DNA from: Roseateles oligotrophus | GTDB lineage: Bacteria > Pseudomonadota > Gammaproteobacteria > Burkholderiales > Burkholderiaceae_C | Direction of reading: 5' to 3' | NCBI RefSeq assembly: GCF_025717515.1 | Contig: NZ_JAJIRN010000004.1 | Span: forward strand, 248,001-312,000 | DNA: 64,000 nucleotides | Part shown: one piece after another, positions 18,969 through 38,491 of the stretch | Position numbering within the stretch: the stretch's first letter is position 1 | How the letters are laid out: every line of letters starts with the position of its first letter | Notes under the pieces: model-generated | Databases searched by the model: none | The model's input: only the letters and a program-made list of their open reading frames with translations | Told to the model about the DNA's origin: nothing | Program-made: the position numbers and the translations under genes

Positions 18969-19322
18969 ATGCTGGACTCGATTGATGCTGCCGCTGCACC
19001 GCCCTTCAGCCTGACGCTAGGCCCCGAGCTCACGATTGCTCAGGCGGCGGACACCCATGGCTTGCTGCTTGAAACCCTGAGTCGCCTGGACGGTCTGAAC
19101 CTCAGCCTCGACCTCGGCGGTGTCAGTGACTTCGACAGCTCGGGCGTCCAGTTATTGCTGGCGGCCCAGCGCAGCATGCATGAGCGGCACGCGCTTTTGC
19201 TGCTGCCCGCCCCCAGTGCTGTTGTCTTGGCGGCGCTGCGTTGCTACGGCCTCGACGGCGAGCTGAAAGCGATTCGATCCGTGGCCGCAAAAGAAGCCAG
19301 CGAGGAAATCCCATGTCAATGA
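18969..19322 (+). CDS. STAS-domain protein of the chemosensory operon
   Basis: A 117-residue STAS (anti-sigma antagonist-like) domain. The helix-2 motif is DFDSSGVQLLLAAQ, with S57/S58 where SpoIIAA-type proteins are phosphorylated. It lies between cheY and cheA; its 3' end overlaps cheA, so it is translationally coupled to the kinase. STAS proteins bind kinases or transporters as switch partners. Here it might tune CheA or link the system to another regulator, but no cognate anti-sigma kinase is visible nearby. An NTP-free structural scaffold role cannot be excluded. Confidence 0.82.
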   Translation: MLDSIDAAAAPPFSLTLGPELTIAQAADTHGLLLETLSRLDGLNLSLDLGGVSDFDSSGVQLLLAAQRSMHERHALLLLPAPSAVVLAALRCYGLDGELKAIRSVAAKEASEEIPCQ

Positions 19323-21568
19323 CCGACGACGACGCAGAGATACTGGCCGTAGCCAGGGCCGGTTTTCTGGACGAGGCGCAAGAAATGCTGCGTCAGTTTG
19401 AGGAGGGCCTGCTGGTACTGGAGAACAATCCGGAAGACTCGGAAAGCCTGAACTCGGCCTTCCGGGCGGCGCACACGATCAAGGGCACGGCCGGCATGTT
19501 CGGCTGCGACGCCGTCGTGACCTTCACCCATGAGGCCGAGACCTTGCTGGAGGCCTTGCGCTCCAACCAGCGCCAGTTGGATGACGATGTGGTGGCCGCC
19601 TTGCTCGAAAGCCGCGACCAGATCGAGTTGCTGCTGGGCGAAGTGCAAAGTGGCGACAGCGACCCGGCCGTGGCCGCAAGCAGTGCGGCGCTGGCAAGCC
19701 GCTTGCGCGCCTTGTTAGGTGCACCCGAACCGGCCCAAGCGAGCAAGCCCGTCGCCGCCGCTGCGCCGGCCGCCGCCGCGCCGGTTGCGGTCGACAAGAT
19801 TTGGCATCTATCGCTGCGCTTTTTGCACGATGCGCTGCGCAACGGACTGGATCCGCTGTCCTTTCTGCGCTACCTCGCCACCTTGGGTGAAATCAAGGCC
19901 ATCACGGCGCTGTCTGCCGCCGTGCCGCCGCTCGAATCACTCGACGCCGAGGCCTGCTATCTGGGCTTTGAGTTGCGCTTCGAAAGCACGGCCTCGCTGG
20001 CCGACATCACGCGCGTATTCGAGTTCGCGGCCGAAGACAGCAGCATTCAAATTTTGCCGCCGGGCACCGCGCCGGCAGCGTTCGAGACCCTGGCCACCTT
20101 GCGCTGCGGCGACGATGCCGAAGCCCGCGTTGCCCTGTTCGACTGCTGGCGGGCGATGGGCATGCACTTCGATCTGCGCGTGGAGGTGATAGGCGCTCCG
20201 GCCAGCGAAGAGGCCCCGGTGCTGGTGCCCCATATTGAACGCCGCGCGGCCGCTCCGGCGGATGGCGCGCAACGCAAGGTCAGTGATCGCCGCAGCGGCG
20301 AGGGCGAGCGCCGCGAAGGCGGCCGCGACCGCCGCGCCGGCGACGAAACCCGTTTTGTGCGCGTGCGCGCCGACAAGCTCGACAAGCTGATCGACCTGAT
20401 CGGCGAGTTGGTCATCGCAGGCTCCGGCGCGCAGATGATTGCCCACCAGGAAGGCGCCGAGGTCTTGCTGGAGGCCACCCAGCGCGTGATGGATCTGGTG
20501 CAGGAAACCCGTGATGGCACCTTGGCCCTGCGCATGGTGCCGATCGGCGAGACCTTTGCACGCTTCCAGCGCGTCGTCCGCGATGTGTCCAAACAACTCG
20601 GCAAAGAGGTCGATCTGGTTGTCAGCGGTGGCGACACCGAGATGGACAAATCGATGGTCGACTCGATCGGCGACCCGCTGATGCACCTGGTGCGCAACAG
20701 CATGGATCATGGCCTGGAGACCTTCGACGAACGCCTGGCCACCGGCAAACCTGCCGCCGGGCGCTTGGCCCTGAATGCTTATCACGAGGCCGGCTCGGTG
20801 GTGATCGAAGTCAGCGATGACGGCCGTGGCCTAGCGCGTGACCGCATCATCAAGAAGGCGGTCGAGCGCGATCTGATCGCGGCGGGTCAGGTCTTGTCCG
20901 ATCATGAGGTCTGGCAGCTGATCTTCCAGCCCGGTTTCTCCACCGCCGAGCAGGTCACCGACCTGTCGGGCCGTGGCGTCGGCATGGATGTGGTCAAACG
21001 CAGCATCGAGTCGCTGCGCGGCACCATCACGCTGACCAGCACCGTCGGCCATGGCACCTTGACGCAGATTCGTCTGCCGCTGACGCTGGCGATGATCGAC
21101 GGCTTCCTGACCATGGTCGGTGGCGTCAACTATGTGCTGCCGCTGGCGGCGGTGTCGGAGTGCATCGATGTCCCGGCCGAATGCGCGAAGCAGAGCGACC
21201 GCGTCAGCGGCACCTTTGATCTGCGCGGCGAAATTCTGCCTTGGTTGGATCTGGCCCGCTTCTACGGCATCAGTGCGCAAGGCCATGAGACCGAGCACAG
21301 CCGCCGCCGCAGCGTAGTGGTGGTGCGCGACGGCCCGACCCGCATCGGCCTGATCGTCGACCGCTTGCTGGGCGAGCACCAGACCGTCATCAAACCGCTG
21401 TCCGGCATCTTCCAGCACCTGAAGGCGCTGGCCGGCTCAACCATTCTAGGTTCGGGTGAGGTCGCCTTGCTGCTGGATGTGTCGGGGCTGTTTGCCGCTG
21501 CCATCCGGGAAGGTCAGCACAAGAAAACAGCAAGTCAAGCAAGTCGTGCCCCGAGCGGGCAAGCCTGA
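19313..21568 (+). CDS. cheA: chemotaxis histidine kinase CheA
   Basis: A 751-residue kinase. The Hpt domain comes first, with the phospho-accepting H54 in AAHTIKGTAGMFG. An Ala/Pro linker leads to a P2-like domain at about 165-290 (SLRFLHDALRNGLDPLSFLR). A charged R/E/D linker (about 320-345) follows. Next are dimerisation helices (DKLDKLIDLIGELVIAGS), the ATPase domain (N box with H458 in HLVRNSMDHG, G box GRGVGMDVVK near 553) and the C-terminal CheW-like domain from about 600. ATG codons at 19313 and 19319 are both possible; the second gives an ATGA overlap with the STAS stop. It phosphorylates CheY and CheB under receptor control. Confidence 0.94.
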   Translation: MSMTDDDAEILAVARAGFLDEAQEMLRQFEEGLLVLENNPEDSESLNSAFRAAHTIKGTAGMFGCDAVVTFTHEAETLLEALRSNQRQLDDDVVAALLESRDQIELLLGEVQSGDSDPAVAASSAALASRLRALLGAPEPAQASKPVAAAAPAAAAPVAVDKIWHLSLRFLHDALRNGLDPLSFLRYLATLGEIKAITALSAAVPPLESLDAEACYLGFELRFESTASLADITRVFEFAAEDSSIQILPPGTAPAAFETLATLRCGDDAEARVALFDCWRAMGMHFDLRVEVIGAPASEEAPVLVPHIERRAAAPADGAQRKVSDRRSGEGERREGGRDRRAGDETRFVRVRADKLDKLIDLIGELVIAGSGAQMIAHQEGAEVLLEATQRVMDLVQETRDGTLALRMVPIGETFARFQRVVRDVSKQLGKEVDLVVSGGDTEMDKSMVDSIGDPLMHLVRNSMDHGLETFDERLATGKPAAGRLALNAYHEAGSVVIEVSDDGRGLARDRIIKKAVERDLIAAGQVLSDHEVWQLIFQPGFSTAEQVTDLSGRGVGMDVVKRSIESLRGTITLTSTVGHGTLTQIRLPLTLAMIDGFLTMVGGVNYVLPLAAVSECIDVPAECAKQSDRVSGTFDLRGEILPWLDLARFYGISAQGHETEHSRRRSVVVVRDGPTRIGLIVDRLLGEHQTVIKPLSGIFQHLKALAGSTILGSGEVALLLDVSGLFAAAIREGQHKKTASQASRAPSGQA

Positions 21569-21603: not shown

Positions 21604-24600
21604 ATGCTTTCCCTGCTGCGCAAACTCATGCTCTGGCAACGCTTCGTCCTGCTGGCTCTGATCGCCATGCTGGCCTGCGCAGTGCCCTTCACCTTGGTGT
21701 TGAAAAACTTGAATCAGCAGCTTGAGGTCGCCAAGGCGGAAGACTTTGGCCTCGACCCCTTGCGCTCAACGGTGGAGGCGATCCGGCAGCTGCAAATCCA
21801 CCGCGGCCTGGCCGGCTTGGCGCTCAACGGTGACGCAACCGCAAGCGCCAAGTTGCAGGATGTGAGTCGAGCGCTGGCCAAGCCACTGGATGAATTGCGC
21901 AAGCTGCTTCCCGTCGATGATCCACACTACCAGCGGGTTCGCGAGCAGGCCACAGCGCTGCAGGCCGCGTCGCAGCAACTGACCGCCAAGGTCGCCTCGC
22001 GCGCTATCGACGCGCCAAAGAGCTTTGCGGAGCACAGCCGCTTGGTCGACGATGCACTGCTGCTGATTGAAAGCGTCTCAGATACCGCCGGATTGTCCTT
22101 GGACCCCGAGGAGGCCACCTATTTTCTGGTCACGGCTGCGGCTGAATATCTACCCCAGCTGTCCGAGTCAATGGCGCAGGTGCGAGGCAAGGGCGCGAGC
22201 ATGGTGGCGGGTCTGAGCGCCGGCAAGGAGTTCAGCGCGTCGGATCTGTCCGCGCTGCACGATTTGCGCCAAAAAACGGAGTTTTGGCGCCAGCGCGCCA
22301 AGCGCCAAATAGAAAAGTCCTTGAGCAGCGAACCGAAGCTCGCCACTGCGCTGGACAAGCCCGTCACAGTGGCCTTGCGCGCAGCCGACGAGTTCCTCCA
22401 GCAGGTCGACAAGCAGACCGGTGGCGGCAAGCCCACGATAAGCGGCCAGGAGCTGTTCGCTCAGGGCACGGTGGCCGTCGAGGCGCAGTTTGCGCTGGTC
22501 AAGGCAGCGACCGAGGCGCTGGAAAATTTGCTGCATGAGCGCACACGTACGCTGACCTTGCAGCGCAATGTGGGCAGCTCCGCCTTGATCGGTTTCATGC
22601 TGCTGGCCCTTTACGTGGGTGTGCTGATCGTGCGCTCGATCACCCAGCCGATACACCGCGCGATGGCAGCAGCCAATGCGGTGGCCCAAGGCGACTTGGC
22701 CTTCGACACCCACGACGCTCATCACGATGAGATGGGCAGCTTGCTCGGCAGCTTGGGCCTGATGCAGAGCAATCTGCGCCAACGCATGGCGGATGATGCC
22801 CAGCTCAGCGCCGAGACCGGCCGCATCAAACAAGCGCTGGATGTCTGCTCGACCAATGTGATGATTGCCGATGTCGACCTGAACATCATCTATATGAACA
22901 GTTCGGTCGCCAAGATGATGCAGGGCAATCAGGCCGAGCTGCGCAAGAGCCTGCCCAACTTCGATGCTGGCCGACTGATGGGCAGCAATATCGACAGTTT
23001 CCACAAAAACCCCGCGCATCAGCGCGGCATGCTGGCCAATCTGCGCGGCGAGTACAGAACGCAAATCAAGGTCGGCGGCCTGGACTTTGGCCTGGCGGCA
23101 AACCCCATCATCGATAGCAAGGGACAACGCCTGGGCACCGTGGTCGAGTGGAAGGACATGACAGCCGAGTTGGCCGCGCGCGAGCGCGAACTGGCGCTGG
23201 CAGCGGCCAATGAGCGGGTCAAGCAGGCGCTCGACATCTGCTCGACCAATGTGATGATCGCCGACACCGACCTGAACATCATCTATATGAACCGCTCTGT
23301 CACGCAAATGATGCAGGGCAACGAGGCCGAGCTGAAGAAGGTCTTGCCTAACTTCGATGCCAAGCGGCTGATGGGAACCAATATCGACGGCTTCCACAAG
23401 AATCCGGCACATCAGCGCGGCATGCTGGCCAAGCTGCAGTCCGAGTACAAGACGCAGATCAAGGTAGCGGCGCTTGACTTCGCCCTGGCCGCCAACCCCA
23501 TCATCGATGCAACAGGCAAGCGCCTCGGTACGGTGGTCGAGTGGAAGGACATCACGGCCGAGTTGGCCGCGCGTGAACGCGAATTGGCGCTGGCCGCCGA
23601 GACCTCGCGCGTCAAGCAGGCGCTCGACATCTGCTCGACCAATGTGATGATCGCCGACCCGGACGGCAACATCATCTACAACAACAGCTCCGTCGCCCAG
23701 ATGATGGCCCGCAACGAGGCCGAGCTGCGCAAGGTCTTGCCGGCCTTTGATGCGCGCAAAATCGTCGGCAGCAATTTCGACCAGTTCCACCGTAACCCCT
23801 CACATCAACGCAATCTGCTCGGTGGCCTGAAGAGCGAATACAAGACCGAGATCAAGGTCAGCGCGCTGACCTTCGCCCTGATCGCGAACCCGATCAATGA
23901 CAGCAAGGGCAATCGCCTGGGCACCGTGGTCGAGTGGAAGGACCGCACGGCCGAAGTAGCGGCCGAGGTCGAGGTCGGCGCGATGGTGGACGGTGCGACG
24001 CAGGGCAACTTTGCCGAGCGCATTGCGCTGGAAGGCAAGGAACCTTTCTTCAAAATGTTGGGCGAGAAGTTCAACTCCTTGGTCGAGACCGTCAGCGGCA
24101 CCATCCGCGAGGTGCGCACCGCGGCCGACCAGTTGGGCGGTGCCTCGGATCAGGTCTCGCAGACCTCACAGAGCTTGTCGCACTCGGCCTCGCAACAGGC
24201 CGCCAGCGTCGAAGAAACAACCGCTTCCTTGCAAGAGATGGCGGCCTCGGTGAAGCAGAATTCCGACAGCGCCAACGTCACCGACGGCATGGCAACCAAG
24301 GCCGCCAAGGAAGCGATGGAAGGCGGCCAAGCGGTCGGCCAGACGGTGGACGCGATGAAGCAGATCGCCACCAAGATTTCCATCATCGACGACATTGCCT
24401 ATCAGACCAATTTGTTGGCCTTGAACGCAGCGATCGAGGCGGCCCGCGCCGGCGAGCATGGCAAGGGCTTTGCGGTGGTGGCGGCCGAGGTGCGCAAGCT
24501 GGCCGAACGCAGCCAGGTCGCCGCGCAGGAGATCGGCACCTTGGCGGCCAACAGCGTCAAGCTGGCCGAGCAGGCCGGCACCTTGCTGACGAATATGGTG

Positions 24601-24900
24601 CCCTCGATCCAGAAGACCTCGGAGCTGGTGCAGGAGATTGCGGCGGCCTCGGGCGAACAGTCGCAAGGGGTGTCGCAGATCAACGGCGCGATGAATCATC
24701 TGTCCACCGCGACGCAGCAAACCGCATCGGCCTCCGAAGAGTTGTCGGCCACCGCCGAGGAGTTGTCGGCGCAGGCCGCGCAGTTGCAGGAGCAGATGGC
24801 CTTCTTCAGACTCGCCGACGACGGTGATGGCGGCGGATCGGGCGGTAGCAGTAGCAGTCGGCGCAGCGGCAGTGTCCAGCGCAAGCCGGGCCAACGCTAG
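21604..24900 (+). CDS. methyl-accepting chemotaxis protein 1, NIT-like sensor and three PAS modules
   Basis: A 1098-residue receptor, first of four in tandem. Membrane segment 1 spans about 12-32. A large helical periplasmic domain (33-320, NIT-like, with [14 protein letters not shown]) follows, membrane segment 2 is at about 325-347, and then HAMP. Three PAS copies start at residues 407, 538 and 669, exactly 131 apart. The signalling domain covers about 800-1065, with tip [20 protein letters not shown] and EE methylation-type pairs ([22 protein letters not shown]). The C-terminus is a Gly/Ser/Arg tail without a CheR-docking motif. The ligand is unknown. Confidence 0.93.
22822..23970 (+). repeat. 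three tandem 393-bp PAS-coding units in receptor 1
   Basis: Units begin at 22822, 23215 and 23608, a period of exactly 393 bp (131 codons). Each starts R[16 protein letters not shown] and runs through [12 protein letters not shown] or its variant to GTVVEWKD. The third unit is the distinct terminal type ([30 protein letters not shown]). Confidence 0.95.
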
Positions 24901-24938
24901 GTTGGCCAAATCAAATCCACAGACCAGGAGAAATACAA

Positions 24939-27821
24939 ATGTCTCTCTCGAATATGCATGTTGGTCAACGGCTGGGCCTGGCGTTTGCCATCGTGCTCGC
25001 GCTCTTGCTGGCCTGTGTCGGCTTGGGCCTCTACGAGTTGCGTGCCAGCAACCAGGCCATGGATCATCTGATTCACGATGTGAATCAGAAGACGGCGCTG
25101 ATCAACAAGATGTCGGAGAGCGTGCACATCGCGCAGCGCGTCGGTCGCAGCATGATTCTGCTGCAGGACAAGGCGGCCATCGAGGCCGAGCGACCCAAGG
25201 TTGCCGCGGCACGCAAGGTCTATGGCGAAGCGCTGACCGCGCTGGAAAAGCTGCCCAGCGACGATGAGGCGCAGCGCCTGCTGGCCAGCATCAAGGAAAA
25301 GGCCGCAGTGACCCGGCCTTTGCTGGATCAGGTGATGGACCTGGCCACAAGAGACAAGGCCGAGGCGACCAAGATCGTGCTGGAGAAGGTCAACCCGGCA
25401 TCGAAGGCCTGGCAGGACGAAACCGCGAGCTTTATCGACCTGCAGGCTAAACGCGCCGCGACCGATTCGGAGCAGGGCAAACAGGCCTACCAAACCGCAC
25501 AGAACACCTTGATGGCACTCGCTGCGCTGGCGGTGGCGCTGGGCGCCGGGGCCGCTTGGACGGTCACGCGCGGCATCACAAGGCCGTTGGCGCTGGCGAT
25601 CAAGACCGCCCACTCGATTGGCGAAGGCAAGCTCGATAACGAGATTGCCGAAGACGGCCAGGACGAACCCGGCCAGATGCTGGTCGCGCTGGCCGCGATG
25701 CAGAGAGACCTGCGCGAACGCAATGAACGCGAGGCCGTCACGGCGATGGAAACCAGCCGCCTCAAGCAGGCGCTGGATACTTGCTCGACCAATGTGATGA
25801 TCGCCGACGCCGAGCTCAACATCATCTATATGAACCGTTCGGTCACGCAGATGATGAATGGCAACGAGGCCGAGCTGCGCAAGGGTCTGCCCAACTTCGA
25901 CGCCAAGCGTCTGGTGGGCAGCAATATCGACAGCTTCCACAAGAACCCCGCCCATCAGCGCGGCATGCTGGCCAATCTGCGCGGCGAATACAAGACCCAG
26001 ATCAGGGTTGCCGGCCTGGACTTCGGTCTCTTCGCCAACCCCATCATCGACGCCAATGGCAAGCGCCTAGGCACGGTGGTCGAGTGGAAGGACATCACCG
26101 CCGAACTGGCCGCGCGCGAACGCGAGTTGGCCCTTGCATCGGCCAACGAACGCGTCAAGCAGGCGCTGGACAGCTGCTCGACCAATGTGATGATCGCCGA
26201 CGTTGACCTCAACATCATCTATATGAACCGCTCGGTGGGGCAGATGCTGCAGGGCAATGAGGCCGAGTTGAAGAAGGTCTTGCCGAACTTCGATGCCAAG
26301 CGCCTGATGGGTGCCAATATCGACAGCTTTCACAAGAATCCGGCGCACCAGCGTGGCTTGCTGGGCAAGCTGCAGAACGAGTACAAGACGCAAATCAAGG
26401 TCGCCGGCCTGGACTTTGGCCTGGTTGCCAACCCCATCATCGACAGCACCGGCAAACGCCTGGGCACGGTGGTCGAATGGAAGGACATGACCGCCGAATT
26501 GGCCGCCCGTGAGCGCGAATTGGCGCTGGCGGCCGAAAACTCGCGCGTCAAACAGGCGCTCGACATCTGCTCGACCAATGTGATGATCGCCGACCCGGAC
26601 GGCAACATCATCTACAACAACAGCTCCGTCGCCCAGATGATGGCCCGCAACGAGGCCGAACTGCGCAAGGTCTTGCCGGCCTTTGATGCGCGCAAGATCG
26701 TCGGCAGCAATTTCGACCAATTCCACCGTAACCCCTCACATCAACGCAATCTGCTCGGTGGCCTGAAGAGCGAATACAAAACCGAGATCAAGGTCAGCGC
26801 CCTGACCTTCTCGCTGACCGCCAACCCGATCAACGACAGCAAAGGCCAGCGCCTGGGCACCGTGGTCGAGTGGAAGGACCGCACGGCCGAAGTGGCGGCC
26901 GAGGTCGAGGTCAGCGCGATGGTGGACGGCGCGACGCAGGGCAACTTTGCCGAGCGCATTGCGCTGGAAGGCAAGGAGCCTTTCTTCAGAATGTTGGGCG
27001 AGAAGTTCAACTCCTTGGTCGAGACCGTCAGCGGCACCATCCGCGAGGTGCGCACCGCCGCCGACCAGTTGGGCGGTGCCTCGGACCAGGTCTCGCAGAC
27101 CTCGCAGAGCTTGTCACACTCGGCCTCGCAGCAGGCCGCCAGCGTCGAAGAGACAACCGCGTCCTTGCAAGAGATGGCGGCCTCGGTGAAGCAGAACGCC
27201 GACAGCGCCAACATCACCGATGGCATGGCCACCAAGGCCGCGCGCGAAGCGATGGAAGGCGGCAAGGCGGTTGGCCAGACGGTCGACGCGATGAAGCAGA
27301 TCGCCACCAAGATTTCCATCATCGACGACATTGCCTATCAGACCAATTTGCTGGCCTTGAACGCAGCGATCGAAGCGGCCCGCGCCGGCGAGCATGGCAA
27401 GGGCTTTGCAGTGGTGGCGGCCGAGGTGCGCAAGCTGGCCGAACGCAGCCAGGTCGCCGCGCAGGAGATCGGCACCTTGGCGGCCAACAGCGTCAAGCTG
27501 GCCGAGCAGGCCGGCACCTTGCTGACGAATATGGTGCCCTCGATCCAGAAGACCTCGGAGCTGGTGCAGGAGATTGCGGCGGCCTCGGGCGAACAGTCGC
27601 AAGGGGTGTCGCAGATCAACGGCGCGATGAATCATCTGTCCACCGCGACGCAGCAAACCGCATCGGCCTCCGAGCAGCTCTCGGCCACCGCCGAAGAGTT
27701 GTCGGCGCAGGCCGCGCAGTTGCAGGAGCAGATGGCCTTCTTCCGGCTCGCGGATGACGGCTCCGGCAACAGCGGCAGTGGTGCTGGCAGCCATAACAAA
27801 CGTCGTACCACAAGGCGCTGA
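24939..27821 (+). CDS. methyl-accepting chemotaxis protein 2, four-helix-bundle sensor and three PAS modules
   Basis: A 960-residue receptor. Membrane segment 1 covers about 11-31. A four-helix-bundle periplasmic domain of the 4HB_MCP type (32-187), with [14 protein letters not shown] and paired helices, follows; membrane segment 2 is at about 188-210, then HAMP (ITRPLALAI to about 265). PAS copies begin at residues 274, 405 and 536. The signalling domain is nearly the same as in receptor 1: 263 bp (27411-27673) are identical to 24475-24737. The tail is short and basic (NKRRTTRR). The leader has CAGGAGAAATA before the ATG, shared with receptor 3. Confidence 0.93.
25758..26906 (+). repeat. three tandem 393-bp PAS-coding units in receptor 2
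   Basis: Units begin at 25758, 26151 and 26544, again exactly 393 bp apart. The first two are of the IIYMNRSV type and the third of the [15 protein letters not shown] type. They are homologous to the units in the other three receptors. Confidence 0.95.
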
Positions 27822-27878
27822 GTCAAGCGGCAACCGCCGCCCTATCGGCATTGAGTTTTCGGTCCAGGAGAAATATCT

Positions 27879-30761
27879 ATGACACTTGCCAATCTTAAAG
27901 TTGGTCAAAGACTGGGTCTGGCTTTTGCCATGGTCCTGGCTCTGTTTGCAGCGACTGCGGGGTTGGCTTTACGCGACTTGGCCAACTCCAACCATGCGCT
28001 GTCCCATGTGGTGTCGGAGAACTTCAGCCGCATGGTGGGGCTCAACAGCCTGTCGGAGCAGGCCCATGTCGAGCAGAGGGTGGTGCGCAGCATGATCCTG
28101 TATTCGGCCAAGGAGGCGATCGAAGGCGAACGCGCCAAGGCCATGCAGGCGCGCAAGGCCTTTGACGAGGCCTTCGCAGCCTTGCTGAAGAACACCGAAC
28201 GCGACGAAGACAAGCAAGTGCTGGGGCAGGCCCGCGAGCAGGCCAACAAAACCCGCGCGCTGACCGACCAGGTGATGGAGCTGGCCGCGCTGAACAAGGA
28301 CGAGGAGGCCACCAAAATTCTGCTGGAACAGGCCAGCCCGGCCGGCAAGGTTCTGCAAGGCCAATTGGACAAGGCAGTTCAACTGCAAATTGACGACGCC
28401 AGGGGAGATGCCGAGGACTCCGCCAAGGAATACAGCCAGGTGCGCGCCTGGCTGATCGGTTTGACCCTGCTGTCGTTTGCGATCGGCAGCGCCGCCGCCT
28501 GGTTCGCCACCGTCAGCATCACCCGGCCGCTGACGCGAGCCATCAAGACCGCCAGCGCCATCGGCAGCGGTGAGCTGAACAACGACATCCCCACCGACGG
28601 CCAAGATGAACCCGGCCAGGTGCTGGCGTCCTTGGCGGCTATGCAAGACGAGCTGCGCAGCCGCAATGACCGGGAAACCACCGCGCTGGCCGAGACGGCC
28701 CGTGTCAAACAAGCACTCGACATCTGCTCGACCAATGTGATGATCGCCGACGCCGACCTCAACATCGTCTACATGAACCGCTCGGTCACCCAGATGATGC
28801 AGGGCAACCAGGCCGAGTTGCGCAAGAGCTTGCCCAACTTCGATGCGAATCGTTTGATGGGCGCCAATATCGATGGTTTCCACAAGAACCCCGGCCATCA
28901 GCGCGGCATGCTGGCCAATCTGCACGGTGAATACAAGACCCAAATCAAGGTCTCCAATCTGGACTTCGGTCTGATCGCCAACCCCATCGTCGATTCGGCA
29001 GGCAAGCGCCTGGGCACCGTGGTCGAGTGGAAGGACATGACGCAGGAGTTGGCCGCGCGCGAGCGCGAACTTGCTTTGGCCGCCGTCAACGAGCGGGTCA
29101 AGCAAGCGCTCGACATCTGCTCGACCAATGTGATGATTGCCGACATAGACCTCAACATCATCTATATGAACCGCTCGGTCACGCAGATGCTGCAAGGCAA
29201 TGAGGCGGAGCTGAAGAAGGCGCTGCCCAACTTCAATTCTCGTCAGTTGATCGGCGCCAATATCGACAGCTTTCACAAGAACCCGGCCCATCAACGCGGC
29301 ATGCTGACCAAGCTGCAGAGCGAATACAAGACGCAGATCAAGGTCTCGAGCCTGGACTTCGGCCTGATCGCCAACCCCATCATCGACGGAGCCGGCAAGC
29401 GCCTGGGCACGGTGGTCGAATGGAAGGACATGACGCTGGAGCTGGCCGCGCGTGAACGCGAACTGACGCTGGCCGCCGAGACGGCGCGCGTCAAGCAGGC
29501 GCTCGATATCTGCTCGACCAATGTGATGATCGCCGACCCCGATGGCAACATCATCTACAACAATACCTCGGTGGCCCAGATGATGGCCCGCAACGAGGCC
29601 GAGCTGCGCAAGGTCTTGCCGGCCTTTGATGCGCGCAAGATCGTCGGCAGCAACTTTGACCAATTCCACCGTAACCCCTCACATCAGCGCAATCTTCTCG
29701 GTGGGCTGAAGAGCGAATACAAGGCCGAGATCAAGGTCAGCGCGCTGACCTTCGCCCTGATCGCGAACCCGATCAATGACAGCAAGGGCAATCGCCTGGG
29801 CACCGTGGTCGAGTGGAAGGACCGCACGGCCGAAGTGGCGGCCGAGGTCGAGGTCAGCGCAATGGTGGACGGCGCCACGCAGGGCAACTTTGCCGAGCGC
29901 ATCGCGCTAGAAGGCAAGGAGCCTTTCTTCAAAATGCTGGGCGAGAAGTTCAACTCGCTGGTTGAAACCGTCAGCGGCACCATCCGCGAGGTGCGCACCG
30001 CCGCCGACCAGTTGGGCGGCGCCTCGGATCAGGTCTCGCAGACCTCACAGAGCTTGTCGCACTCGGCCTCGCAGCAGGCCGCCAGCGTCGAAGAAACCAC
30101 CGCTTCCTTGCAAGAGATGGCGGCCTCGGTGAAGCAGAACGCCGACAGCGCCAACGTCACCGACGGCATGGCCACCAAGGCCGCGCGCGAGGCGATGGAA
30201 GGCGGCAAAGCGGTCGGTCAGACGGTCGACGCGATGAAGCAGATCGCCACCAAGATTTCCATCATCGACGACATTGCCTATCAGACCAATTTGCTGGCCT
30301 TGAATGCGGCGATCGAAGCGGCCAGAGCGGGTGAGCATGGCAAGGGCTTTGCGGTGGTGGCGGCCGAGGTGCGCAAGCTGGCCGAGCGCAGCCAGGTGGC
30401 GGCGCAGGAGATCGGCACGCTGGCGGCAAACAGCGTCAAGCTGGCAGAGCAGGCCGGCACCTTGCTGACGAATATGGTGCCCTCGATCCAGAAGACCTCG
30501 GAACTGGTGCAGGAGATTGCGGCGGCCTCGGGCGAGCAATCGCAAGGGGTGGCGCAGATCAACGGCGCAATGAATCATTTGTCCACCGCGACGCAGCAAA
30601 CGGCATCCGCATCCGAGCAGCTGTCAGCCACCGCCGAAGAGTTGTCGGCGCAGGCCGCGCAGTTGCAGGAGCAAATGGGCTTCTTCCGCCTCGCCGACGA
30701 TGGCGGCAGCGGCGGCAGCGGTCATTCAAGCGGCAACAAACGCAGGCCCGGCAAGCGCTGA
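27879..30761 (+). CDS. methyl-accepting chemotaxis protein 3, four-helix-bundle sensor and three PAS modules
   Basis: A 960-residue receptor with the same length and plan as receptor 2. Membrane segment 1 covers about 11-31, a 4HB_MCP-type periplasmic bundle 32-188, membrane segment 2 about 190-212, then HAMP. PAS copies start at residues 275, 406 and 537. The periplasmic part clearly differs from receptor 2 (acidic patches such as [13 protein letters not shown]), so ligand or partner should differ. The signalling domain tip is unchanged. The tail is basic (NKRRPGKR). A 112-bp tract at 29725-29836 is identical to 23846-23957 of receptor 1. Confidence 0.93.
28701..29849 (+). repeat. three tandem 393-bp PAS-coding units in receptor 3
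   Basis: Units begin at 28701, 29094 and 29487, exactly 393 bp apart. The last is the terminal type ([15 protein letters not shown]). The second unit has drifted more ([13 protein letters not shown]). Confidence 0.95.
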
Positions 30762-30808
30762 TATTCAGGCGTCAGCGTCCATAAAACCAACAACCCCGAA
30801 AGACCTTC

Positions 30809-33800
30809 ATGCGTAGCAATCTACCCATCACGCAGCAGGAATATCTGCTGAAAGAAGGCATGACCATCGTGTCACGCACCGACCTCAAGGGCCGCATCAC
30901 CTATATCAACGACGACTTCATCGAGGCCAGCGGTTTCACCGAGGCCGAATTGATCGGTGAGCCGCACAATCTGGTGCGCCACCCCGACATGCCGGAGGAG
31001 GCATTCGACGATATGTGGAAGGTGCTGAAGGACGGCCGGCCCTGGACCGGCCTGGTCAAAAACCGCTGCAAGAACGGCAACTTCTACTGGGTGCTGGCGA
31101 ATGCGACGCCGGTCAAGGAAGGCAATGCGGTGGTCGGCTATATGTCGGTGCGCACCCGGCCCGGCCGCGATCAGGTCGCCGCTGCGGAAGCGCTCTACCG
31201 CAAGTTCAAGGAAGGCAAGGCGCAGGGCTGGGTGATACGCGACGGCCAGGGCGTTCGCCCTGGCATGGTCGACAGCCTGCAGCGCTGGTTGGGCGCCTTG
31301 AGTCTGGGCAGCAAGACGCTTTTGTGCACGCTGCTATTGGTGACCGGTGGCCTGGGCCTGGGAATGGCCTGGCCGAACATGAACATGCTGCTTGGCGGGC
31401 CGGCTTTGGCCTCACTGCTGCTCGGCCTATGGGGACTGAAGGCCACCGCGTCTCGGCTCGCCGACACCTTGAACCGCGCCGCCGCGCAGTTCGAGCAATT
31501 CGGCCAGGGCCGCTTTGACGGCATCGTCGAGGTCAGCGGTCAAGACGAGTTGGCCGCCATGATGCTGGCGCTCAAGCGGGTGCAGACCCGGCTGGGCTTC
31601 GAGTTCGCCGATACCAAGAAACGCGCCGACGAGGCCGAACGGATTCGCCAGGCGCTCGACGTCGCCGCCACCAACATCATGGTGGCCGACAGTGGCTACA
31701 ACATCATCTACGGCAATGCCTCGTTGAAGGCGATGCTGGGTGAGGCCGAAGCCGACATCCGCAAAGACCTGCCGCGCTTTTCGGCCGGGGCGGCGGTGGG
31801 CAGCAATATCGATGTCTTCCACAAGAATCCCAGCCATCAGCGCGGCCTGCTGGATCGTTTGAACAGCACCCACAAGACCCGTTTGACCATAGGCGGACGG
31901 CGCTTCGACTTGATCGTCAACCCCATCATCACGGCCGGCAAACGCCTGGGCACCGTGGTCGAATGGAAGGACATGACGGCCGAACTGGCGGCACAGGAAA
32001 AGGCTCAAATAACCGCGTCGAACAACGAGCGCGTCAAGCAGGCGCTGGACATCTGCTCGACCAATGTGATGATCGCCGACAGCGAGCTCAACATCATTTA
32101 TATGAACCGCTCGGTCACACAGATGATGCAGGGCAACGAAGCCGAACTGAAGAAGGTCTTGCCTAACTTCGATGCCAAGCGGCTGATGGGCACCAATATC
32201 GACGGCTTCCACAAGAACCCGTCGCATCAGCGCGGCATGTTGGCGCAGCTGCAAAACGAATACAAAACGCAGATCAAGGTCTCGTCGCTGGACTTCGCCC
32301 TGACCGCCAATCCCATCATCGACGCCGCCGGCACGCGCCTGGGCACCGTCGTCGAGTGGAAGGACATCACCCAGGAATTGGCCGCCCGCCAACGCGAACT
32401 GGCGCTGGCCGCCGAGACCTCGCGCGTCAAGCAGGCACTCGACATCTGCTCGACCAATGTGATGATCGCCGACCCCGAAGGCAACATCATCTACAACAAC
32501 GTCTCGGTCGCGCAGATGATGGCCCGCAACGAGGCCGAATTGCGCAAGGTCTTGCCGGCCTTCGATGCACGCAGAATAGTCGGCAGCAATTTCGATCAAT
32601 TCCACCGTAACCCCTCACACCAGCGCAATCTGCTCGGTGGGCTGAAGAGCGAGTACAAGACCGAAATCAAAGTCAGCGCCCTGACCTTCTCCTTGATCGC
32701 CAACCCGATCAATGACAGCAAGGGCGTTCGCCTCGGCACCGTGGTGGAGTGGAAGGACCGCACGGCAGAAGTGGCGGCCGAGGTCGAGGTCGGCGCGATG
32801 GTGGACGGCGCCAATGGCGGCGACTTTGCCAACCGCATCGAGCTCGAAGGCAAGGAGCCTTTCTTCAAGATGCTGGGCGAGAAGTTCAACTCGCTGGTCG
32901 AGACCGTCAGCGGCACGATACGCGAGGTGCGCACCGCCGCCGATCAGCTGTCGGGCGCCTCGGATCAGGTCTCGCAGACCTCGCAAAGCCTGTCGCACTC
33001 GGCCTCGCAGCAAGCCGCCAGCGTCGAACAGACGACCGCGCAATTGCAGGAAATGGCCGCCTCCGTGAAGCAGAACTCGGACAGCGCCAATGTCACCGAC
33101 GGCATGGCCACCAAGGCGGCCAAGGAAGCGATGGAGGGCGGGCAGGCGGTCAACCAGACGGTCGAAGCGATGAAGCAGATCGCCACCAAGATTTCCATCA
33201 TCGATGACATCGCCTATCAGACCAATTTGCTGGCGCTCAACGCCGCCATCGAAGCGGCCCGTGCCGGCGAGCATGGCAAGGGCTTTGCCGTGGTGGCGGC
33301 CGAGGTGCGCAAGCTGGCCGAGCGCAGCCAGGTGGCCGCGCAAGAGATCGGCACCCTGGCCGGCAACAGTGTGAAGTTGGCGGAAAAAGCCGGCACCTTG
33401 CTGACCAATATGGTGCCCTCGATCCAGAAGACCTCGGAATTGGTGCAGGAGATTTCGGCCGCCTCGGGCGAACAGTCGGAAGGCGTGTCGCAGATCAATA
33501 GCGCGATGAACCATTTGTCCACCGCCACCCAGCAAACCGCCTCGGCCTCGGAGCAGCTGTCGGCCACGGCCGAGGAGTTGTCGGCTCAGGCGGCGCAGTT
33601 GCAGGAGCAGATGGCCTTCTTCAGGTTGGCCGATGACGACGGCGGCGGCAAACCAGCGCCCCGGAGCAGTGGCGGTAGTGGTGGTAGTGGTGGCGCGGCC
33701 TCGGGTAGCGGTGGAGGATCCTCGCGAGGGCGCAGCCAGACGGTGGCCCAAAAACTGCAGCAGTACAAAGCCCCGGCTGGCGCAGCGCGCGCGCCGGCAC

Positions 33801-33898
33801 CCGCACAGGCTGCGGCCCCAAGCAGCCCGTCCAGACCGAGCAAAGGGATCAAACCCGTCTCGGGCGAAGTCGATGAATCGCATTTCAAACGCTTTTGA
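30809..33898 (+). CDS. methyl-accepting chemotaxis protein 4, Aer-type PAS sensor plus three PAS modules
   Basis: A 1029-residue receptor with a cytoplasmic N-terminus. The first PAS domain (about 20-120) is Aer-like, with [33 protein letters not shown] and [17 protein letters not shown]. Such domains usually bind FAD or heme and sense redox or oxygen. A membrane hairpin covers about 166-215, then a HAMP-like part. Three shared PAS modules start at residues 278, 408 and 538; the first is the most divergent ([17 protein letters not shown]). The signalling domain is followed by a flexible Gly/Ser/Ala/Pro linker and the terminal peptide HFKRF, which fits the CheR-docking pattern x-aromatic-x-x-aromatic. 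Confidence 0.93.
31640..32785 (+). repeat. three tandem PAS-coding units in receptor 4
   Basis: Units begin at 31640, 32030 and 32423: the first interval is 390 bp (130 codons), the second 393 bp. The first unit is the most diverged of the twelve. The second closely resembles the second unit of receptor 1, and the third is the terminal type ([15 protein letters not shown]). Confidence 0.93.
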
Positions 33899-33911: not shown

Positions 33912-34460
33912 ATGAGCAGATCCACACGCGATGCGCCGGCCGACCTCTTGCGCGGCGCCATCGCCGAACAAGCGGCCGCCGGGCCGATGTGCCAGATGCT
34001 TCGCTTGGCCGTGGGCCAAGAAACGCTGGTGGTACCGATCGAAGCGGTGCGCGAGATTTTGGAGGTCGGGCGCATGACCCCGCTGCCGCAGACCCCCGAC
34101 TTTGTGCGCGGGGTGATGAACCTGCGCGGCGCGGTGGTGCCGGTGATCGACCTGGGCGCGCGTTTCGGTTTTGGCGCCACCGAGATCGCCCGGCGCTCCG
34201 CCATCATCGTGGTCGAAGCCAAGGGTGACGATGACTTTGACCGTTTGGTCGCCGGCTTGCTGGTGGACGCGGTGTTTGAGGTGCTGGATGTCGACTCCAA
34301 GCGCATCGAGGCGGTGCCAAACCTCGGCGTGGGTGTGGCGGGAGAATTTTTGGCCGGCATGGTCAATGTGGCCAGCGGTTATGCGGCCCTGCTCAACCTC
34401 GATCAAGTTTTATCACCGGTAGCGCTGTCGGCCCTGATCGCCGAAGCGCAGATTGCCTAA
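33912..34460 (+). CDS. cheW: chemotaxis coupling protein CheW
   Basis: A 182-residue CheW, somewhat longer than the usual 150-165 because of about 25 extra N-terminal residues. The core starts MCQMLRLAVGQETLVVPIEAV. The conserved receptor/CheA-binding segment is TPDFVRGVMNLRGAVVPVIDL. It couples the four receptors to CheA in the array. GAGGAG stands seven bases before the ATG, and the gene begins 13 bp after receptor 4. It is the only separate CheW in this operon. Confidence 0.93.
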   Translation: MSRSTRDAPADLLRGAIAEQAAAGPMCQMLRLAVGQETLVVPIEAVREILEVGRMTPLPQTPDFVRGVMNLRGAVVPVIDLGARFGFGATEIARRSAIIVVEAKGDDDFDRLVAGLLVDAVFEVLDVDSKRIEAVPNLGVGVAGEFLAGMVNVASGYAALLNLDQVLSPVALSALIAEAQIA

Positions 34461-34478: not shown

Positions 34479-35291
34479 ATGAGCCAACTCTCAGCCGAAT
34501 CTTTTACCGCCATCACCGAGCTCTTTCACCGCATCTCGGGCATCAAATTGGTCGAGAGCAAGCACGCGCTGGTGCAGAGTCGTTTGCAAAAACTCAGTAC
34601 CGATTCCGGCGAAGATGACATCAATGTGTTCGTGCAGAAGATGGTGCGCGGCCAGATGCCGGAGTCGCTGCTGGTCAGCGTGGTGGACAAGCTGACCACC
34701 AATGAAACCTACTTCTTCCGCGAACCTCAGCACTTCGAGGATCTAGCCAGACGCGCCGAGGCGCATCGTGACGGCTCCGAGTTTCTGGTCTGGAGCGGTG
34801 CATCATCATCGGGCGAAGAGGCCTACAGCATCGCCATGACCTTGGCCGACAAATTGGGCCTCGGCAAAGGCGGGCGCCCTTGGTCTATACGCGGCACCGA
34901 TCTATCCACCAGCGTGGTGGACAGTGCGCGCCAAGGCCTCTACCCGATGGAGCGGGCCCGCAATGTGCCGATGGACTTCTTGAAGCGCTTTTGCCTGCAG
35001 GGCTTCGGGCCTTATGAGGGTCAGCTCTTGATCAACCGAGAATTGCGAGCCAAGGTGCAGTTTCAATGCGCCAACCTGATGCAGCCGCTGCCCACCTTAC
35101 CCATGTTCGATGTGATTTTTTTACGCAATGTGTTGATCTATTTTGATGGTCCGGCAAAAACCGCCATCGTGAACCGCGTGATCGAGCGACTCAAGCCCGG
35201 TGGCGTGCTATACCCTGGCCATGCGGAGTCACTTGCGGCGCTTAGCCTTCCACTCAAGGCGATAGCGCCGGCAATCTATCAACATGCATAA
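34479..35291 (+). CDS. cheR: chemotaxis protein methyltransferase CheR
   Basis: A 270-residue S-adenosylmethionine-dependent enzyme that methylates receptor glutamates. The N-terminal helical domain (about 1-70) precedes the Rossmann domain with VWSGASSSGEEAYSIAMTLA. TNETYFFREPQHFE and the later DVIFLRNVLIYFD and GGVLYPGHAESL are family signatures. The beta-subdomain that holds receptor pentapeptides is present in the normal place. Its 3' end overlaps cheD by eight bases. Receptor 4 carries a candidate docking peptide for it. Confidence 0.94.
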   Translation: MSQLSAESFTAITELFHRISGIKLVESKHALVQSRLQKLSTDSGEDDINVFVQKMVRGQMPESLLVSVVDKLTTNETYFFREPQHFEDLARRAEAHRDGSEFLVWSGASSSGEEAYSIAMTLADKLGLGKGGRPWSIRGTDLSTSVVDSARQGLYPMERARNVPMDFLKRFCLQGFGPYEGQLLINRELRAKVQFQCANLMQPLPTLPMFDVIFLRNVLIYFDGPAKTAIVNRVIERLKPGGVLYPGHAESLAALSLPLKAIAPAIYQHA

Positions 35292-35847
35292 GCCCCATAG
35301 CCCCCATTCAGCGCATTCAACATCCTTGCCGGCCCGCCCCACAGCTGGGGCGGTCGGTGGCGGCCCGCAGATCATCAATCTGATGCCGGGGCAATGGCAC
35401 TTCGGTCAGGCCGCCACGCTCAAGACCTTGCTCGGCTCTTGTGTGGCGATCACCTTGTGGCATCCGCTCAAGCGCTATGGCGGCATGTGCCATTTCCTGC
35501 TACCGAGCCGGGCGACTCGTGGCCAAGGCGCCTTGGACGGTCGCTATGGCGATGAGGCCATTGAATTGCTCTTGCAAGGCATTGCCCGCACCGGCACCAA
35601 ACCGAGTGATTACATCGCCCATCTCTATGGCGGCGCCGACACCATGCCCGACGGCATGAATGTGAAGTTCAATGTCGGCGAGCGAAATATCGAAAAAGGC
35701 TGGGCCTTGATCGATAACAACGGCTTTCAGTTGCAGGACGTTGATGTCGGCGACAACGTACCGCGCACCGTCGTGATCGACCTCGCCACCGGCAAGGTCG
35801 ACGTCAAGCGCAGCGCAGCACCCGGCTCGATCGGAGGCCGCAAGTGA
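35284..35847 (+). CDS. cheD: chemoreceptor glutamine deamidase CheD
   Basis: A 187-residue deamidase that converts receptor glutamines to glutamates and often interacts with other Che proteins. The catalytic cysteine is in LLGSCVAITLW (about 50-60) and the histidine in GGMCHFLLPS. The family motif GGADTMPD-x-MNVKFNVGERN is complete. About 25 His/Ser/Pro-rich residues extend the N-terminus. It overlaps cheR by eight bases and cheB by four (GTGA), showing tight coupling. Confidence 0.93.
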   Translation: MHKPHSPHSAHSTSLPARPTAGAVGGGPQIINLMPGQWHFGQAATLKTLLGSCVAITLWHPLKRYGGMCHFLLPSRATRGQGALDGRYGDEAIELLLQGIARTGTKPSDYIAHLYGGADTMPDGMNVKFNVGERNIEKGWALIDNNGFQLQDVDVGDNVPRTVVIDLATGKVDVKRSAAPGSIGGRK

Positions 35848-36983
35848 GCGCGCCGCTGCGGGTTGCCATCATTGACGACTCGGCGGTGGTGCGCAAGCAC
35901 CTCGGCGCCGTCCTGGAAGCCGCCGGCATCCAGGTCAGCATCACCGCCAGCGATCCACTCTTTGCCTTGCCCAAGCTGGAGGCCGATTGGCCCGATGTGA
36001 TTGTGCTCGACGTCGAGATGCCGCGCATGGACGGCATTACGTTTTTGAAGCGTTTGATGAGCGAGCACCCGATGCCGGTGGTGATGTGCTCGACCTTGAC
36101 CGAGGCCGGCTGCGAAACCACCATGCAGGCCTTGGCGGCCGGCGCGGTCGGTTTTGTCACCAAACCCAAGCTGGGGCTGCGCGACTTTCTGGAAGATCCG
36201 GGCAACGGTTTGGTCGGCGCGGTGCGAGCTGCGGCGCGGGCCAATGTACGTGCCCTGCCCAGCCAACTCGCCATTCAGCAGGGGCCTCAATCCGCCAACG
36301 CCACACAGAGCGCCACCACCGGCGCCGCACGTGCAAGGCGGCCCTCCCCCATCATGAATATCAACGCGATGGCGATGGCCGAGACCACCGATCGCGTGAT
36401 CGCTTTCGGTAGTTCTACCGGCGGTGTGCAGACGATAGAGGCCGTGCTCAAGCAATTGCCGCGCACCTGCCCGGGCATCGTGCTGGTGCAGCATATGCCG
36501 GAGAAATTCACCCAGTCCTTTGCCGCCCGACTCAACACCGTCACCGATTTGGAAGTCATCGAAGCCAAAGACGGTGACCGCGTCATCAACGGTCGTGTCT
36601 TAGTGGCGCCGGGTGGGCGGCATATGCAACTCAAGCGCAGCGGCGCGCAGTATGTGGTGGAGGTGCGCGACGGGCCGCTGGTCAACCATCACAAGCCCTC
36701 GGTCGATATCCTGTTCAAGTCGGTCGCCCATTGCGCCGGCCGCAATGCCATCGGTGCGATCTTTACCGGCATGGGCGACGACGGTGCGCGCGGCTTGCTG
36801 GAAATGCGCAAGTCAGGCGCCATGACCTTGGCTCAGGATGAAGCCAGCTGCGTGGTCTACGGCATGCCCAAGGCGGCCGCCGAATTGGGCGCGGCCCAGC
36901 ATGTCGTGGCCTTGTCGGATATGGCCGCGGTACTGCTCAAATTGAGCGGCATGGCGACCGGCCCGCTCGGCAACAACGGATAG
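35844..36983 (+). CDS. cheB: protein-glutamate methylesterase CheB
   Basis: A 379-residue response regulator with a methylesterase output domain. The receiver has phospho-acceptor D56 in VIVLDVEMPRMDG. A linker of about 40 residues follows. The esterase carries the serine in AFGSSTGGVQTIE near residue 190, the histidine in VLVQHMPEKFTQSFA, and the aspartate in IFTGMGDDGARGL. It starts at a GTG whose last bases overlap the cheD stop. It removes methyl groups from the receptors when phosphorylated by CheA. It ends the operon, converging on the response regulator at 36987. Confidence 0.94.
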   Translation: MSAPLRVAIIDDSAVVRKHLGAVLEAAGIQVSITASDPLFALPKLEADWPDVIVLDVEMPRMDGITFLKRLMSEHPMPVVMCSTLTEAGCETTMQALAAGAVGFVTKPKLGLRDFLEDPGNGLVGAVRAAARANVRALPSQLAIQQGPQSANATQSATTGAARARRPSPIMNINAMAMAETTDRVIAFGSSTGGVQTIEAVLKQLPRTCPGIVLVQHMPEKFTQSFAARLNTVTDLEVIEAKDGDRVINGRVLVAPGGRHMQLKRSGAQYVVEVRDGPLVNHHKPSVDILFKSVAHCAGRNAIGAIFTGMGDDGARGLLEMRKSGAMTLAQDEASCVVYGMPKAAAELGAAQHVVALSDMAAVLLKLSGMATGPLGNNG

Positions 36984-37352: not shown

Positions 37353-37582
37353 GGTCACGCCCTTGGCCGAATAGACATTGCCTCCAATAATGCCTGAAAT
37401 TTGTCTCGCTGGGGCCTCCACATAGCGTCTGCATCAATCAAACTGCAGCGAAAAGACAGGGCCTTTTCATGCGCCTCAAGTTTCCGCAGAATAGGGCCGA
37501 AGAGGAAAGACAAACATGGGCGTGCCGCATTGTGCTGGGCGGATCACGCACCGAATCCATAACCCGACCGGAGCCATGCCGA

Positions 37583-38470: not shown

Positions 38471-38491
38471 GCCATCGAGCGTTCGCGATCC

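Follow-up and report, generated by a model that had tools for sequence, protein, structure and literature searches.

Four tandem chemoreceptors with three Aer2-like PAS modules each in a che gene cluster of Roseateles oligotrophus

The receptor array and its setting

We analysed 64,000 nucleotides of Roseateles oligotrophus DNA (NCBI RefSeq assembly GCF_025717515.1, contig NZ_JAJIRN010000004.1, positions 248,001 to 312,000 of the forward strand; ‘the window’ below, in whose coordinates all positions are given). Four open reading frames (ORFs) for chemoreceptors, R1 to R4, lie head to tail on the + strand at 21604-33898, in the midst of che genes, and encode proteins of 1098, 960, 960 and 1029 aa (Table 1). 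Each receptor carries three copies of one PAS module followed by a methyl-accepting chemotaxis protein (MCP) signalling domain. The 12 copies have 115 residues each (114 in R4 PAS1) and follow one another at 131 residues, 130 once, i.e. at 393 bp in R1-R3 and at 390 and 393 bp in R4.

An initial annotation, made from the sequence, had described twelve copies of a roughly 131-residue PAS module, three per receptor, with starts 393 bp apart in three receptors and 390/393 bp apart in the fourth, and the same signalling domain after each triplet. All of this was reproduced: the coordinates and the spacing came out the same, and PAS_8 as well as MCPsignal scored above the Pfam cut-offs in all four receptors. 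An independent repeat search returned 12 copies of a 300-nt unit, equally spaced and matching the PAS copies. The initial annotation had overlooked an Aer-type PAS in R4, the Aer2 heme-pocket positions of the modules, the che operon and the divergence of R4 PAS1.

Table 1. Receptors, receptor domains and chemotaxis genes of the window
Feature	Coordinates	Strand	Composition or evidence
CheY-like single-domain response regulator	18567..18929	+	Response_reg (Pfam); NCBIfam receiver matches including CheY
STAS-domain protein, anti-sigma-factor-antagonist type	18969..19322	+	STAS_2, E=6.5e-11
CheA kinase (Hpt, dimerisation, HATPase, CheW-like)	19313..21568	+	Pfam
R1	21604..24900	+	Transmembrane (TM) helix, NIT-like helical periplasmic part, TM helix, HAMP, three predicted heme-type PAS, HAMP-like segment, 34H-type MCP domain
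R1 PAS1	22822..23166	+	
R1 PAS2	23215..23559	+	
R1 PAS3	23608..23952	+	
R1 MCP signalling domain	24289..24768	+	PF00015; arms 65/83 vs 72/90 in Tsr
R2	24939..27821	+	Four-helix-bundle periplasmic domain, HAMP, three predicted heme-type PAS, HAMP-like segment, 34H-type MCP domain; 4HB_MCP_1 E=1.2e-18, HAMP, MCPsignal
R2 PAS1	25758..26102	+	
R2 PAS2	26151..26495	+	
R2 PAS3	26544..26888	+	
R2 MCP signalling domain	27225..27704	+	Pfam
R3	27879..30761	+	Four-helix-bundle periplasmic domain, HAMP, three predicted heme-type PAS, HAMP-like segment, 34H-type MCP domain; 4HB_MCP_1 E=1.1e-16
R3 PAS1	28701..29045	+	
R3 PAS2	29094..29438	+	
R3 PAS3	29487..29831	+	
R3 MCP signalling domain	30168..30647	+	Pfam
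R4	30809..33898	+	Aer-type (predicted FAD) PAS, membrane hairpin, HAMP, three predicted heme-type PAS, HAMP-like segment, 34H-type MCP domain, C-terminal tail
R4 N-terminal PAS, Aer (FAD) type	30860..31138	+	PAS_9 E=8.4e-19; PDB 31cj, 8dik
R4 PAS1, distinct type common to last receptor of relatives	31640..31981	+	Module tree
R4 PAS2	32030..32374	+	
R4 PAS3	32423..32767	+	
R4 MCP signalling domain	33104..33583	+	Pfam
Pentapeptide HFKRF, R4 C-terminus	33881..33895	+	Fits CheR tether pattern; absent from R1-R3
CheW	33912..34460	+	PF01584 E=8.9e-33
CheR	34479..35291	+	PF01739
CheD	35284..35847	+	PF03975 E=1.1e-22
CheB	35844..36983	+	PF01339 E=5.3e-64

The gene order is cheY, STAS, cheA, R1-R4, cheW, cheR, cheD, cheB, with cheA ending 35 bp before R1. 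As the intergenic gaps from cheA to cheB are at most 57 bp or negative, this stretch is likely to be one operon. Elsewhere in the genome (55 contigs) there is one further match to the CheA dimerisation domain (H-kinase_dim), the operon’s CheA being the other of the two; the MCP domains number 26 in all.

Pairwise identity among the modules ranges from 54 to 98% at protein level and from 63 to 96% at DNA level. R4 PAS1 is only 54-58% identical to the other eleven; judged by its sequence, it is a separate, older type.

Sensor modules, signalling class and input ends

The modules resemble the heme PAS domains of Aer2. A profile built from the 12 modules (A1, used for the PDB and for relatives) matched only three PDB sequences at E≤0.01, all of them Aer2: 3vol (5.1e-45), 4hi4 (9.3e-45) and 6ceq (2.2e-23). 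A histidine in column 61 (F-H-[KR]-N-P) and a tryptophan in column 110 (VVEWKD) are invariant in 12 of 12 modules and align with a histidine and a tryptophan of the Pseudomonas aeruginosa Aer2 chains. The distance between the two columns, 49, is that between H234 and W283 of Aer2, W283 being the residue that we take to be its heme-pocket tryptophan. H234 is the heme-ligating histidine according to a review (PMC13401364). Since 6ceq carries leucine at the tryptophan position, not every Aer2 has that tryptophan.

The part of R2 that begins ahead of PAS1 and ends with the HAMP-like segment was modelled with AlphaFold (eight sequences; mean pLDDT 77.7). The two best Foldseek matches of the model were 4hi4 and 3vol, the P. 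aeruginosa Aer2 PAS chains; the stacking of domains in this model is unreliable because its pTM is 0.38. Heme binding by the modules is strongly predicted. The idea, put forward earlier, of identical cofactors in each module fits the conserved pocket positions, with heme itself a prediction. All 12 A1-type PAS matches of the genome (E≤1e-12) fall inside the array.

The NCBIfam model for Vibrio Aer2, NF041847, gave R1-R4 scores of 498.1, 554.6, 486.1 and 462.6 bits at a curated cut-off of 1200; since none of 274 class-sample genomes reached this cut-off either, the low scores say little. At loose thresholds the model is a poor probe for relatives, as its MCP half matches chemoreceptors generally, and A1 was used instead.

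The signalling class was read from the length of the two arms of the MCP domain, the near arm running from the methylation-site glutamate to the tip and the far arm from the tip to the far anchor. In R1-R4 the arms have 65 and 83 residues, in Tsr 72 and 90; being one heptad short each, they are of 34H type by count, not 36H. The genome has 22 further MCPs; six of them were unreadable by the motifs used, and none of the 16 readable on at least one arm had 65 or 83: near arms were at 72 or 78-79 (n=14), far arms at 90 or 91 (n=11). We compared the window with ‘Vibrio-type’ loci, meaning the best 20 NF041847 matches in the class sample, which come from other orders and all lie below the model cut-off. 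Their near arm has 72 residues in 19 of 20 loci and 78 in one. From the last PAS to the tip we counted 151 residues in the window and 203-204 in 20 of 20 Vibrio-type loci, a difference that fits one heptad plus one HAMP fewer. We use the term HAMP-like for the segment after PAS3 since R2 PAS3, together with what follows it, aligns with the PAS-HAMP chain 3vol; the only HAMP in the Pfam output is the one preceding PAS1 (in R4 at 18.8 bits, under the cut-off of 25).

The 34H receptors are described as a minor class (PMC11253619) linked to F8 systems (PMC7184735, PMC11253619), and class-specific chemosensory models of MiST are named in PMC6943060. The window has a 34H-type receptor set in a che cluster of its own, as is expected for F8; judged by receptor class, a link of the operon to F8 systems is likely.

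The inputs ahead of this common part differ. Two predicted TM helices stand far apart in R1-R3, and R2 and R3 have 4HB_MCP periplasmic domains. The N-terminal 405 residues of R1 matched no Pfam family beyond HAMP, save a chance-level DUF1611 hit (E=0.027, under its cut-off), and the periplasmic part gave no NIT match in Pfam with E allowed up to 10. Its AlphaFold2 model is all-helical (mean pLDDT 84.7), with NasR (4akk) as the best PDB match (E=2.1e-5, TM-scores 0.52/0.57); a NIT-like fold is a guess of moderate strength, and R1 would possibly be a nitrate-type sensor beside oxygen sensors. In this part of R1 (21604-22620) arginine R67 is invariant in 11 of 11 aligned sequences.

R4 begins with a fourth PAS, which matches two PDB entries labelled ‘Aerotaxis receptor’, 31cj (domain i-Evalue 1e-42, residues 3-159) and 8dik (E=1.5e-40, residues 8-132). 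It retains PHN-VRHPDMP, and flavin adenine dinucleotide (FAD) binding may be presumed from the likeness. A predicted membrane hairpin follows, with no large periplasmic part.

R4 ends in a putative CheR tether. The tether pattern is x-[HFYW]-x2-[HFYW] (PMC7184735). In 11 Roseateles-type multi-receptor arrays, that of the window included, a fitting pentapeptide ends the last receptor and none of the earlier ones; in R. subflavus one extra residue follows it. All three receptors of Ideonella paludis end in a fitting peptide. The operon’s CheR aligns without gaps to E. coli CheR around RGTGPHEG, a loop which we take to be a mark of tether-dependent CheRs. A related remark is made in PMC11253619.

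Some observations concern the upstream part of the operon and its surroundings. The STAS gene (18969-19322), itself within the che operon, has a 3′-end that runs 10 bp past the assumed start of cheA. Upstream of cheY, an ORF of 166 aa (18028-18528) with a D-x-x-x-Q stretch and an EFF C-terminus has no Pfam or NCBIfam match; it aligns to E. coli CheZ with gaps, at 30% identity, and calling it a CheZ-like phosphatase would be a guess only. Beside the operon, at 37469-43548, are genes for a periplasmic binding protein of phosphonate type and for two large histidine kinases with PAS domains, one of which also has CHASE.

Relatives, output halves and membrane-to-tip lengths

A1 matches were found in 12 of 18 same-genus genomes (1e-12), in 24 of 299 genomes of the family sample (1e-20) and in 93 of 369 of the class sample (1e-15), the window genome being counted each time. 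With 12 modules the window genome leads the 12 genus genomes, the next having 8. An array of four receptors with three modules each was seen in none of the other 17 genus genomes, 11 of which have the module. At least two complete receptors on one contig are present in nine of the 12: the window has 3,3,3,3, and the eight others have two modules everywhere (2,2,2; 2,2; 2,2; 2,2,2,2; 2,2; 2,2; 2,2,2; 2,2), modules without heme histidine being included in the count. Among the rest, one genome has two receptors with 2 and 2 modules at contig ends, another has a complete three-module receptor and a second cut off after two modules, and R. koreensis has a single three-module receptor. Outside the genus we found 2,2,2 (G204), 2,2 (R. 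subflavus), 1,1,1 (I. paludis) and, in G338, two modules in one receptor and one in another. Contig ends interrupt the array in two relatives, G005 (L150, L151) and G006 (L152, L153), and some assemblies may be broken by these repeats.

The initial annotation called a fourfold series of triplet receptors unusual, which is in part an overstatement. No second such set was seen in the other 17 genus genomes, but a PAS triplet in one receptor is by itself not new. Of the 20 Vibrio-type loci, a set biased to that type by its selection as best matches, 19 have three PAS copies, 125-127 residues apart; three heme PAS are reported for V. vulnificus Aer2 and three PAS for Leptospira interrogans Aer2 (PMC13401364). 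Several Aer2-like receptors per cluster are also in print, for some Xanthomonadales (PMC7184735).

The heme histidine is not kept everywhere. In the 18 loci compared it was lost in 9 of 80 modules, all in relatives, which form one clade (100/100), with, for example, FYRDS for FHKNP; the tryptophan was kept in 80 of 80, and the histidine-less modules stand in place at full length. Each is the second PAS of one receptor per locus (L148, L149, L150, L155, L156, L158, L159, L161, L162); such a module may act as a naturally occurring spacer, or it may sense a different signal.

When the window receptors were compared in blocks of 40 codons, DNA identity among R1-R3 was 85-100% per block between the PAS3 region and the MCP end, with fourfold-degenerate sites alike up to 25/25 in these output blocks; in the blocks before PAS1 identity is below 70%. 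In a tree of 80 modules (115 columns only, with 24 of 77 inner branches left open) the four window PAS3 group together (98/90), the window PAS2 copies group with two modules of relatives (95/87), and R4 PAS1 groups with first modules of the relatives’ last receptors (98/87). One receptor simply copied four times was considered and rejected, R4 PAS1 being a separate type in this tree. In a HAMP+MCP DNA tree of 32 receptors (G338 and I. paludis excluded beforehand) R1-R3 form a group with 100/100 support, and the three G204 receptors and the two R. subflavus receptors likewise group by their own genome. A single clade of the 14 pentapeptide-bearing receptors, i.e. orthology by type, was rejected (p-AU 2.4e-9). 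Homogenisation is not constant, as other genomes in this tree, for example G007 and its near relative G015, keep their two receptors apart. Thus the input halves sort by type of receptor, while the output halves tend to sort by genome; this is concerted evolution, for which gene conversion is the simplest explanation.

The receptors also agree in length. Counted from the final predicted membrane helix up to the tip, R1-R4 have 591, 592, 592 and 594 residues. In 14 arrays with two modules in every member, 29 of 33 receptors have 457-464 residues, most commonly 460, the rest having 452, 467, 467 and 476; the excess of the window is one 131-residue module. Of the long, rigid cytoplasmic sensor or signal-amplifying stalk suggested in the initial annotation, it is the length that these values support in part.

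We asked how closely lengths agree within arrays in a convenience set of loci, with 38 unique multi-receptor arrays, of which 29 (69 receptors) have two or more members of this PAS family that could be measured. Receptors deviated from the median of their array by 4.81 residues on average, vs 23.63 after shuffling, and none of 10,000 shuffles was as low; the range was at most 10 residues in 19 of the 29 arrays vs 10.91 expected, with none of 10,000 shuffles reaching 19. When all measurable MCPs were taken (32 arrays, 77 receptors), the deviation was 15.14 vs 32.33, and 19 arrays were close vs 10.17 expected. The helix rule had at first required a mean hydropathy of 1.6 over 19 residues, by which the second hairpin helix of R4-type receptors was missed (R4 came out at 625); the revised rule accepts a weaker second helix (mean 1.0, 2-17 residues on) or else takes the best helix of at least 1.2.

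Lengths like those of the two-module receptors turned up in another build too. Among 34H-type receptors with one module of this family and a longer HAMP-bearing part (L076, L080, L092 and others) 19 of 30 have 460-468 residues, the rest 377-438 or 491; for this count receptors were not preselected by distances summing to that length. One of them has HAMP, McpB_HAMP_2 and HAMP_N3 before the PAS and HAMP_2 after it. The agreement may be a coincidence.

Explanations and known systems

We propose, with a probability of roughly 0.68, that the locus is a dedicated oxygen/redox chemosensory operon in which gene conversion helps to hold the receptors to one height. The inputs would be individual, with NIT-like helices in R1, four-helix bundles in R2 and R3 and the Aer-type FAD PAS in R4, and each would be coupled to one sensor-output cassette common to all four: HAMP, three Aer2-type heme PAS in line, a HAMP-like segment and a 34H-type tip that drives the operon’s own CheA. 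The oxygen (or redox) state read at three hemes per stalk would set the state of the stalk, which the membrane-side input would bias. The R4 pentapeptide would bring CheR to neighbouring receptors, with CheD and CheB adjusting methylation. In a mixed array all four receptors would have to span the distance between one membrane and one CheA/CheW layer. For this reason the lengths of their cytoplasmic parts would be kept equal, at three modules as against two in most relatives, and recombination among the four genes would keep the output halves alike.

Several points weigh against this proposal. Heme, FAD and oxygen as ligand are predictions, the NIT-like fold of R1 comes with Foldseek TM-scores of only 0.52-0.57 and no Pfam match, the F8 link is drawn from the receptor class, and R4 joins R1-R3 only weakly in the HAMP+MCP tree (78/77). 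The shuffle test ignores the shared ancestry of arrays, and the length result is not blind, as the helix rule was relaxed once first lengths had been seen; 33 of 168 receptors were left out for want of a helix or for an open 5′-end, and 9 of the 38 arrays had too few measurable receptors. In 10 of the 29 arrays the range exceeds 10 residues. Seven such wide arrays (L081, L084, L087, L092, L097, L100, L121), from Rhodoferax and betaproteobacterial bins, mix lengths of ∼454-468 (501 once) with 426-440. Gene conversion alone could equalise lengths without selection, and the imaged F8 array is short, 20 nm, unlike the tall one supposed here.

A stricter form of the proposal makes PAS copy number the height ruler of a mixed array that requires an equal membrane-to-tip length. 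In that form a module gained by one receptor would have spread to all, modules without heme ligand would be kept as spacers, and the lineage of the window would be one in which all four receptors have just lengthened by exactly one module, with a tall heme-sensor array of 34H (F8-type) receptors. The two PAS layers of F7 arrays lie 24.5 and 30.1 nm above the baseplate (PMC7184735), from which an extra module would be expected to add ∼5-6 nm; by analogy, three modules on a 20-nm 34H receptor, the height of the first imaged F8 arrays (PMC11253619), would give a tall array. As a whole we hold this ruler form to be unlikely.

Among the alternatives, it is quite possible, although we lean slightly the other way, that there was only recent tandem duplication with gene conversion and that the equal module number has no function. 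The output halves of R1-R3 are indeed far more alike than the input halves, and homogenisation is seen in G204 and R. subflavus as well; yet R4 has kept a divergent PAS1, which goes with the last receptors of relatives, and still has three modules, and the relatives have retained histidine-less second modules at full length. The latter observation, which we count in favour of geometry, also bears on a tentative view that we rather doubt, namely that the triple PAS serves sensing and not geometry, three hemes widening the oxygen range or sharpening the response. Conservation of the pocket residues throughout the 12 modules speaks for it, as does V. vulnificus Aer2, which binds three hemes and has distinct roles for its PAS domains; but the oxygen affinities of these domains are similar, contrary to a wider range (PMC13401364), and relatives keep modules without heme histidine at the same position and length.

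We also considered the canonical F7 Aer2 cluster of Pseudomonas, Vibrio and Shewanella, which shares the heme PAS, a che cluster with cheR, cheD and cheB, and a C-terminal pentapeptide in at least one receptor (here R4 only). This candidate is improbable and was rejected: a canonical receptor has a 36H domain, two HAMPs after the last PAS and no periplasmic domain, and the window has arms one heptad shorter each, one HAMP-like segment there and periplasmic domains in R1-R3. Misassembled repeats that multiplied receptors or modules are a very improbable source of the array. It is true that the arrays of G005 and G006 are broken at contig ends and that R1 and R2 share an exact repeat of 263 bp; this is the longest exact repeat between receptors, though, and with copies that differ from each other and an array wholly internal to one contig it makes wholesale artefactual duplication unlikely. 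Open frames in all four genes, unlike inputs and regular spacing speak against an artefact too.

The oxygen/redox operon proposed here can be set beside known systems. Among the closest are the Vibrio Aer2 receptors, tri-PAS-heme in V. vulnificus (Stuffle et al. 2022, as reviewed in PMC13401364) and dual PAS-heme in V. cholerae, with serial Aer2-type heme PAS before HAMP and MCP; V. cholerae Aer2, like the window receptors, is encoded in a che cluster, but it is presumably cytosolic, of class 36H and with two HAMPs (PMC7184735), whereas those of the window are membrane-spanning, of 34H type and have one HAMP-like segment. The module spacing of Vibrio-type loci also differs from the 131 residues of the four tandem paralogues. 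P. aeruginosa Aer2 (McpB, of the Che2/F7 system) supplies the closest PDB kin of the module, and its pentapeptide tether is used by the CheR of the same cluster (PMC7184735), as the pattern in R4 would suggest here; it is a single receptor with one PAS and five HAMPs (PMC13401364), in contrast to three PAS in each of four receptors.

An Aer2-like receptor of Methylomicrobium alcaliphilum comes near the plan of R4, with an N-terminal PAS, possible membrane segments, HAMP, PAS, HAMPs and MCP (PMC7184735), but it has one inner PAS and two HAMPs after it, where R4 has three and one HAMP-like segment. The Aer receptors (31cj, 8dik) are kin of the N-terminal PAS of R4, but R4 differs from them by its three heme-type PAS and its signalling class. 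P. syringae PSPTO_0912 (F8) is a 34H receptor in its own che cluster and the sole pentapeptide receptor of its genome; it is short, 20 nm in model and tomograms, and the available text mentions no PAS stalk (PMC11253619), unlike the three-PAS stalk of the window. Arrays of Roseateles, Paucibacter, Inhella and other relatives have the same module, with the tether-bearing Aer-type receptor last in those of Roseateles type; it is from the eight same-genus arrays with two modules in every receptor that the window differs in having three in each of four.

Searches of an open-licence library turned up no title or abstract that describes this array, a matching of PAS number or gene conversion among Aer2-like receptors. 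The parts are known; what looks new is the uniform set of four three-PAS receptors on 34H-type tips with unlike inputs, together with the matching of length. It is held that CheA and CheW can be shared only among MCPs whose signalling domains have the same length (PMC9855816). In the window the matching appears to extend to the length above the signalling domain, in steps of a whole module, among natural paralogues within a single operon. The array thus gives a handle on whether stalks that share an array must match in height, and it bears on whether extra heme-PAS modules sense or merely hold distance. It would also place heme-PAS sensing on the little-studied 34H class.

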